A stretch of DNA of 64,000 nucleotides from Clostridia bacterium. Lineage in GTDB: Bacteria > Bacillota > Clostridia > UBA1212. The position numbers and the translations under genes were made by a program. The notes under the pieces were generated by a model, which was given only the letters and a program-made list of their open reading frames with translations, had not been told where the DNA came from and did no database searches. The stretch spans positions 1 through 64,000 of the forward strand of contig JAFTXP010000007.1 of assembly GCA_017461545.1 (NCBI GenBank), written 5' to 3'. Shown here piece by piece: positions 25,126-28,209 of this stretch; position 1 is the first letter of the stretch, and every line of letters begins with the position of its first letter.

Positions 25126-25629
25126 TCATTCAGACATTTTATTCTTTACATCATCTATGATAACCTCCGGAACAAGGCCGGAAATATTACCGCCGTTTTT
25201 CGCCACATCCTTTATGATACTCGAACTCAAAAATGAGTTTTTTATGTCCGTCATAAAGAATATCGTGTCAATATCCTCACACATGTGCTTGTTCAGCATA
25301 GCCATCTGAAGCTCGTATTCGTAATCCGACACGGCACGCAGTCCTCTCACGAGCGTAGACGCTCCGCTTTTTTTTACGAAATCCACCAGCAAACCCTCAA
25401 ACATTATAACATCTACATTATGAAGCTCCGGATAAACCGCAAGAGTTTTATTTATAAGCTCCACGCGCTCCTCCATCGAGAAGATGGATTTTTTTGCGCT
25501 GTTGCAAAACACTCCGACTATCAGCTTGTCGAACAGCTTTGAGGCTCGCTTTATAATATCAAGATGTCCGTTTGTAAGAGGGTCAAAACTACCCGGATAG
25601 ACACCGATTCTAACTGTTTTCTCCTCCAC
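25126..25629 (-). CDS. coaD: Phosphopantetheine adenylyltransferase
   Basis: CoaD catalyses the penultimate step of coenzyme A synthesis (4'-phosphopantetheine plus ATP to dephospho-CoA). The 167 residues show GVYPGSFDPLTNGHLDII with the TxGH nucleotidyl-transfer motif, LVRGLRAVSDYEYE and SSSIIKDVAKNGG. The start is GTG 25629, with AAGGAG 9 bases upstream; the ribosome site overlaps the rsmD stop. The rsmD-coaD pair is conserved in Firmicutes. Confidence 0.95.
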   Translation of the reverse strand: MEEKTVRIGVYPGSFDPLTNGHLDIIKRASKLFDKLIVGVFCNSAKKSIFSMEERVELINKTLAVYPELHNVDVIMFEGLLVDFVKKSGASTLVRGLRAVSDYEYELQMAMLNKHMCEDIDTIFFMTDIKNSFLSSSIIKDVAKNGGNISGLVPEVIIDDVKNKMSE

Positions 25630-26284: not shown

Positions 26285-27220
26285 TTAGATAACACTTTTA
26301 AGTTTTTTCGACAATTTTACGGATTCTTCGCGCGCAGCCTCTGCATAGGTTTCAGCGCTGTATTTGCCTGAATATTCGGTATTTTCGTAAGCGTACATAA
26401 TACGTTTTGAGACACATATCAAAGCACCTTGTCCGTCATCGGCATTAAAATATTCCGAATATCTTTCTGTCATAAAATATTCATCTTCATCAGCATCAAC
26501 CAGAATAATACCCCATGAGTCAATATCTCTGACTTCGTAAGCGTCGCCGGCGGATTTCACCGCAAGTCCTACAATGCTGTAGCCGCTGTCGCCCACATAA
26601 TTTTTTCCGAAAAATCCGCCGTCGGCTATTGCCGATTTATACAGTGGTTCTTCGTCTTCTTTGCAAACAATATTTTCGAAATTATCTTCTTTGTCAGAAT
26701 CCGTTGTTATCGCCGAAATGAAAAGACCTCTTGAATTCTCATCGCAGAATCTTACCATATCCCGCAAACCTTCACAGGACGAATAAGGAGAAACAGTCAG
26801 CGCATCTACGCTGAAAGTGCCTTCTATTACAGCGGAGCCGTCTTCTGACACACCCATATCATTTGCCGCAAGATATGCACGTGCATATGCCATACAGTCC
26901 TCTTTTGTTCCGCCTCTTTTGCCGTCTGCAATGACTATCATGCCCTTTGACTTGGCGTACTTTACGGTTGCATCAAAAGCCACAAAACCGCTGATTCCGT
27001 ATACCTCATAGTCTGCAAGAGGCATCACCACTGCCGGAAGAATGTCGCACACCGCATCTATAAATCCTTTGTTGTACAAATACAAAGCTGCACCCAGGCT
27101 CTTATATCCTTTTTTTATAAATTCCGGAAGTTTTTTTACATCCGGTCTCAAAGTCAGAGCCAAATGACTTTTTTTATCTTCACAATTTTTTATAAGTCTG
27201 TCCGAAAAACGGCCTGTCAT
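26285..27220 (-). CDS. Orotidine 5'-phosphate decarboxylase homologue with altered active site
   Basis: The 311 residues align over most of their length with type 2 (PyrF) OMP decarboxylases: a KPQxAFYE-like segment, the DxKxxD strand, GDSGYSIVG and an ending GALICVSKRIMYAYEN. In true enzymes the catalytic tetrad is Lys-Asp-Lys-Asp. Here the first Lys is Met66 (VVMPLADYE), Asp99 and Lys101 remain, and the last Asp is Gly104 (DGKRGG). The usual LDP near residue 25 reads TLRPD. No other pyrimidine gene is adjacent. It is probably a non-decarboxylating paralogue or a decaying gene; an automatic pyrF label would mislead. Confidence 0.75.
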   Translation of the reverse strand: MTGRFSDRLIKNCEDKKSHLALTLRPDVKKLPEFIKKGYKSLGAALYLYNKGFIDAVCDILPAVVMPLADYEVYGISGFVAFDATVKYAKSKGMIVIADGKRGGTKEDCMAYARAYLAANDMGVSEDGSAVIEGTFSVDALTVSPYSSCEGLRDMVRFCDENSRGLFISAITTDSDKEDNFENIVCKEDEEPLYKSAIADGGFFGKNYVGDSGYSIVGLAVKSAGDAYEVRDIDSWGIILVDADEDEYFMTERYSEYFNADDGQGALICVSKRIMYAYENTEYSGKYSAETYAEAAREESVKLSKKLKSVI

Positions 27221-27255
27221 AAAACCATTACCCCTTTGTATAAAATCTTATAGAA

Positions 27256-28209
27256 TTATTCAGCATCGCTGTTATCATTGAAACAATTTTCGTCTATTGT
27301 TACAGTACCGGTGCAATTAACAGCCTGACCGCCTGCATTTACCGTTGTCATTCCTCCGGAAACTGTTACTGTCTGAAGAGACTGTAATGCATCGTCACCT
27401 GCAGTAATATTTACTGTTCCGCCTTCGATACATAAATAGCCTTTTTCTGTTTCCAGCTCATTCTCAACTTTTATACCGTCATCCTGCGATATAACGGTAA
27501 TATTTCCCGAATTTATCGCAACGCTGTCTTTACCTTTTATAGCGTTATTTACCGCTGTAACATTTATAGTTCCCGAAACGATTTTCAAATCATTTGTTGT
27601 CGCAATACCGTTGTTGTAATTTCCTGTTACATTTAGCGTACCTGTGCCGTTAAATGTAAGATCATCTTTGCTGTACACGCATGAATTATGTTCTGCTGCA
27701 CCTGCTTCATATACATATGTTCTACCGTCACTTAAACTATTAACAGTATCTTTTACAACTGTAACAGAAACCTTATCTGCACCGGTTACATATAGAGCTG
27801 AAGAATCGGAACAAGAAATATTTACGCCGTTTAATACAAGATGAACTTTTTCTGTTTTTTCTACTGTAACGACGATCTGACCGTCACTTAATGTTCCGCT
27901 CAGCACATACGTGCCCTCACGGTTCACGGTAAGAACACTACCCTCAGCAGAAGCGCCTGAACCGGAAATGCTTATTCCTGAATCAGCAAGAGTTATCATG
28001 GTAGCTTTTGAATCCCACATCGCATCAAGATCAAAGTCCGAATACTTGTCAGATGCAGCAGCAACACTTTCTTCTCCGAATGCTCCGCCGCCTATGGAAG
28101 GCTGATCTGTCGATGCATTTTGAGCAATTCCGCCGCACGCCGAAACTGCTGAACATATACAAACAACTGTGAGTATCACCACAGTAATTTTTTCAGAAAA
28201 TTTTTTCAT
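27256..28209 (-). CDS. Carbohydrate-binding beta-helix lipoprotein (Cthe_2159-like)
   Basis: The 317-residue lipoprotein has a signal peptide ending in lipobox SAC with Cys25, an Ala/Ser/Gly-rich linker, then repeated strands of about 20 residues such as NGTGTLNVTGNYNNGI, NAIKGKDSVAINSGN, DDGIKVENELE and GDDALQSLQTVTVSGG. This matches the Cthe_2159-like family, whose founding member binds cellulose and polygalacturonate. It is monocistronic with its own promoter. The next genes upstream on the minus strand include a GH28-like enzyme, which could make pectin-type ligands a shared theme. Confidence 0.78.
   Translation of the reverse strand: MKKFSEKITVVILTVVCICSAVSACGGIAQNASTDQPSIGGGAFGEESVAAASDKYSDFDLDAMWDSKATMITLADSGISISGSGASAEGSVLTVNREGTYVLSGTLSDGQIVVTVEKTEKVHLVLNGVNISCSDSSALYVTGADKVSVTVVKDTVNSLSDGRTYVYEAGAAEHNSCVYSKDDLTFNGTGTLNVTGNYNNGIATTNDLKIVSGTINVTAVNNAIKGKDSVAINSGNITVISQDDGIKVENELETEKGYLCIEGGTVNITAGDDALQSLQTVTVSGGMTTVNAGGQAVNCTGTVTIDENCFNDNSDAE

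Follow-up and report, generated by a model that had tools for sequence, protein, structure and literature searches.

A conserved, degenerate homologue of type-2 OMP decarboxylase is a probable pseudoenzyme in an order of Clostridia

OMP decarboxylase (OMPDC) is a standard example of catalytic power and is often used as a genetic marker. Its type-1 (TIGR01740) and type-2 (TIGR02127; structures 3r89 and 3v75) forms are distant families with the same superfamily fold. KGPDC and HPS, other enzymes of the OMPDC suprafamily, have a barrel fold with one conserved Asp after beta-3, and they keep a DxKxxD motif. Pseudoenzymes are known in > 20 enzyme families (PMC10211241). Among decarboxylases, prozyme is a dead AdoMet decarboxylase paralogue that activates its live paralogue by heterodimerising with it (PMC5201418). 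A limited literature search of open-licence papers found no prior description of a conserved pseudo-OMPDC.

The DNA analysed here (the window) is a stretch of 64,000 nucleotides from a Clostridia bacterium. On its minus strand, an open reading frame at 26285–27220 encodes a protein of 311 aa from an ATG start codon, and a Shine–Dalgarno-like AAAGGGG run (27231–27237, minus strand) lies 10 nt before the ATG. The protein matched the type-2 family model TIGR02127 (pyrF_sub2) with an E-value of 9e-32 and 110.2 bits, 0.4 bits below the equivalog cut-off of 110.6; the homologue of a congener, G002, scored 104.7 bits and was also below it. The match to Pfam OMPdecase (15.8 bits) was below the cut-off of 27. 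Like type-2 OMPDC, the window protein is predicted to have the fold over its whole length; it is 26–34% identical to intact Clostridia type-2 enzymes and has in common with those of its own order a KSxGAALFxFNK-like stretch. An AlphaFold model (input A2) had a mean pLDDT of 84.4 and a pTM of 0.86, and its best match among solved structures was the OMP decarboxylase 3r89 (Foldseek E-value 4e-19, TM-score 0.81; VIA Z 33.6 over 284 residues). The predicted structure is thus the TIM barrel of OMPDC, and the only longer stretch with a pLDDT < 50 was the lid region, residues 173–179. The homology to OMP decarboxylase proposed in an earlier sequence-only reading was therefore borne out, and could be narrowed to type 2.

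The active site was examined in two alignments, one of the window protein with 14 intact type-2 enzymes (A2) and a larger one of 55 rows that included 38 intact enzymes. Catalytic positions were assigned from the alignments and from the secondary structure of the AlphaFold model, and the positions of the Lys-Asp-Lys-Asp tetrad follow K42, D70, K72 and D75 of structure 1dv7 (table in PMC5980557). In both alignments, the tetrad of the window protein reads Val65 (27026–27028; this and all other codons are on the minus strand), Asp99 (26924–26926), Lys101 (26918–26920) and Gly104 (26909–26911), so that two of the four catalytic residues are gone. In the model, beta-2 spans residues 63–67, with Val65 inside, and beta-3 spans residues 95–99, ending at Asp99; these are the places where the OMPDC family has its catalytic residues. 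Retention of Asp99 and Lys101 and the presence of Gly104 in the column of the last catalytic Asp had all been read correctly from the sequence. The proposal that Met66 replaces the first catalytic Lys was right about the loss of the Lys, but the residue in its place is Val65, as follows from the ungapped alignment of PAV(K/V); Met66 (27023–27025) aligns one column further on, where most intact enzymes have Pro. Neither the alignments nor the predicted fold show any other residues taking over the catalytic positions.

The sequence-only reading also held that the remaining fold motifs were intact. This was too generous, since many columns that are invariant or nearly so in the 38 intact enzymes have changed as well. 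In the 55-row alignment, Arg25 (27146–27148) occupies the column of the invariant substrate-binding Asp of the GLDP motif, presumably the column of D20 of 1dv7, and Lys272 (26405–26407) occupies that of the invariant phosphate-binding Arg. The PGYGAQG phosphate-binding loop is replaced by DADEDEY (residues 242–248; 26477–26497). Compared with type-2 OMPDC, the window protein lacks the catalytic Lys, the last Asp, the substrate Asp, the lid, the phosphate loop and the Arg. The G002 protein, 80% identical to the window protein, has the same catalytic changes, which places them beyond chance or sequencing error.

These losses extend to the whole GTDB family of the window (f1). K65, K101 and D104 are present in 38/38 intact enzymes, while all nine family members have Val, Ile or Met at position 65 and Gly at position 104. 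Also lost in all nine, relative to the 38 intact enzymes, are D25, Q67, I105 and T108, S173-N174 of the SN/SSG lid, GAT at 222–224, PGYGAQG at 242–248, N269 and R272. N50, K101 and R102 are lost across the family except in the genus of the window: position 101 is Val in genus g2 and Cys in genus g3, and the window motif DGKRGG reads DGVFGG or DGCFGG in relatives. Asp99 is more persistent, being present in eight of the nine (Asn in L076) and in most of the other degenerate copies. Structural columns are retained (G75, G78, I97, G205, G210, Y214, R231 and G265), and new family-specific invariants have appeared (G104, E161, E182, L193, A197, D200, W236, G237 and A243). Pocket positions 65, 67, 101, 102, 105 and 242–248 vary within the family, and in the 55-row alignment the barrel mouth shows no new group of polar residues that are invariant.

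Could the protein still be a working OMP decarboxylase, its missing residues supplied by others? The TIGR02127 score only just under the cut-off and the remaining Asp99 and Lys101 are in keeping with such an enzyme. Against it stand the loss of the catalytic Lys, of the Asp that is contributed to the partner subunit and of the residues that hold substrate and phosphate, the further loss of Lys101 in relatives, and the presence of an intact type-1 pyrF in the genome (see below). Together these make decarboxylation of OMP by the window protein hardly credible.

The source genome assembly comprises 1.37 Mb in 27 contigs and is 69% complete. When it was searched for a second, intact pyrF, as the sequence-only reading had proposed, a type-1 PyrF was found (contig C12, 6345–7007; 215 bits) with the catalytic Lys and the DLKLHD motif, both of which are shared by every type-1 protein found in the order (25). 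The genes pyrD and pyrE flank it, and beyond pyrD there is a pyrK-like open reading frame, which makes this a pyrK-pyrD-pyrF-pyrE cluster. By sequence, this distant type-1 enzyme is the working PyrF of the genome. Synthesis of UMP, and hence uridine, can be explained without the window gene, since the same genome carries an intact pyrF of type 1. The earlier warning against a pyrF label was therefore justified: the catalytic and substrate-binding set has been lost, and an intact pyrF lies elsewhere in the genome. This supports the view that the window protein probably does not serve as the OMP decarboxylase of its genome.

We surveyed 31 genomes of the order; as they are not independent of each other, the counts describe a pattern and are not a test. 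A degenerate copy was present in 9/9 genomes of family f1 and in 19/31 overall (nine of f1, two of f4, one of f6 and seven of genus g11 of family f5). Five genomes (f2, f3 and f5-g9) encode an intact type-2 enzyme and seven have neither type-2 form; no degenerate copy was detectable in genera g8 and g10 of f5. Type-1 PyrF was found in 25/31 genomes and in no case alongside an intact type-2 enzyme (0/31). It accompanied the degenerate copy in 18 of 19 genomes, the exception being G027, a fragmented genome. In f5-g11, all seven genomes keep only the N-terminal half-barrel (≈ 190–214 aa), with a common LKG(I/L)xSG end; the half-barrel entries are L084, L085, L086, L096, L100, L111, L118, L147 and L148. 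One genome contains a second, partial degenerate copy on a separate contig (L013/L151, G007:C220); this genome is 9% contaminated, and the copy may come from a second strain. Degenerate copies were also sought outside the order, in the class and the phylum, with profiles of the degenerate forms. Of the many hits, the higher-scoring ones that were read residue by residue were all intact type-2 enzymes, including 19 from one search.

The degenerate copies are under purifying selection. Between the window gene and its G002 counterpart, dN/dS was 0.066, an approximate value as dS is near saturation (1.83), and it falls within the range of the neighbouring genes (0.03–0.14). For the degenerate copies of g3, dN/dS was 0.11–0.32, compared with 0.05–0.15 for the adjacent mutS2, and the two closest, unsaturated pairs of f5-g11 half-barrels gave 0.19 and 0.23. 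These values bear on whether the gene is a functionless relic that decays slowly and has not yet been deleted. The lost catalytic sites, the lack of a detectable copy in f5-g8 and f5-g10 and the faster evolution of the g3 copies relative to mutS2 would fit decay. However, the frames of the copies are open, a copy is retained in every family member, and dN/dS, far below 1, is similar in the genus of the window to that of housekeeping neighbours. We consider a decaying relic very improbable.

In a maximum-likelihood tree built from 54 proteins, a branch at 100/99 separated the 16 degenerate rows from the rest, and their neighbours were the intact f3 and f5-g9 enzymes. When placed separately, a subset of f1 and the combination of f4 with f5-g11 each attached at the same point of the tree. 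A long-branch artefact was rejected as the source of the degenerate clade on the basis of these separate placements, which are not proof of a single loss. The tree thus favours, but does not prove, one loss event behind the degenerate copies, and the long branches weaken the case for a single origin. The intact type-2 PyrF of f2 (L054/L088, genome G009) grouped with enzymes from outside the order, away from the f3 and f5-g9 enzymes, a placement that points to horizontal transfer of this gene or to a different ancestry.

The genomic setting differs between the intact and degenerate forms. The intact type-2 gene of f3 lies between pyrC and pyrK in a pyrB-pyrC-pyrF-pyrK-pyrD cluster. In contrast to type-2 OMPDC, the window gene lies outside the pyr cluster and coexists with a type-1 PyrF. 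It is followed downstream by genes for an rsmD-type rRNA methyltransferase (PF03602; 25636–26244, minus strand) and, next, a coaD-type nucleotidyltransferase (PF01467 domain match; 25126–25629, minus strand). Directly upstream, a domain match identified a Cthe_2159 carbohydrate-binding domain protein (27256–28209, minus strand); it has a lipoprotein-like N-terminus, is encoded on the same strand as the window gene and is kept in the congener. The other degenerate copies are likewise outside the pyr cluster. Those of the genus of the window and of f6 precede rsmD-coaD, those of g2 and g3 follow mutS2 (radA being the next gene in g3), those of f4 precede recG, and those of f5-g11 have a GH99-like gene beside them. 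In g3 (L075, L077, L079 and L080), the degenerate gene separates mutS2 from radA, and the genes of this same-strand run are ≈ 20–70 bases apart; recG is on other contigs in the genus of the window. A role could not be assigned from these neighbours, as the recurrent ones (mutS2 and radA, recG, rsmD-coaD, GH99-like) differ from genus to genus and indicate no single pathway.

The window protein has two features of a pseudoenzyme, namely homology to an enzyme family combined with loss of conserved catalytic residues, and retention by selection in several species. It probably derives from the type-2 OMP decarboxylase native to the order and would now most likely have a non-catalytic role, as a scaffold or a regulatory binding protein. 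More broadly, we lean towards a lineage-wide pseudoenzyme family that arose from OMP decarboxylase after replacement by a PyrF of a different type, took on a new non-catalytic function and was reduced to a half-barrel in one branch. We infer that the pyr cluster acquired a type-1 PyrF, which then took charge of UMP synthesis. The displaced type-2 protein, its gene now outside the cluster, would then have been freed to lose catalysis, while some property of the barrel, such as a dimer surface or a partner-binding face, may have been maintained by selection.

A different outcome would be a neofunctionalised enzyme, in which the barrel catalyses another reaction, perhaps via Asp99 (and Lys101 in the genus of the window), as in KGPDC and HPS. 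Retention of D99 in nearly all family members and most other degenerate copies, and of D99 with K101 in the genus of the window, leaves room for some residual chemistry, and purifying selection is strong. The OMPDC suprafamily is known to change reactions, according to references listed in PMC5980557. However, the DxKxxD of KGPDC and HPS is broken here, the window family having DxKxxG, DxVxxG or DxCxxG in its place. Moreover, the f5-g11 forms consist of the first half of the barrel only, and the retention of half-barrels in every genome of that genus argues against a barrel active site. We therefore regard a new enzyme as unlikely, and favour non-catalytic scaffolding or binding because the pocket varies freely, no new invariant polar set has arisen and one genus has half-barrels. 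The proposed pseudoenzyme resembles prozyme in that a paralogue without catalysis is retained alongside a live decarboxylase. Unlike in the prozyme system, the live PyrF here is of a distant type, which makes a heterodimer unlikely.

A label of pyrF on the degenerate genes would assign uridine synthesis to the wrong gene. In these bacteria, OMP decarboxylase has a conserved, selected descendant without an active site, and the intact enzyme, the half tetrad, the single remaining residue and the half-barrel make up a graded natural series. This series may be useful for tracing how an enzyme turns into something else once its job has passed to a second gene.
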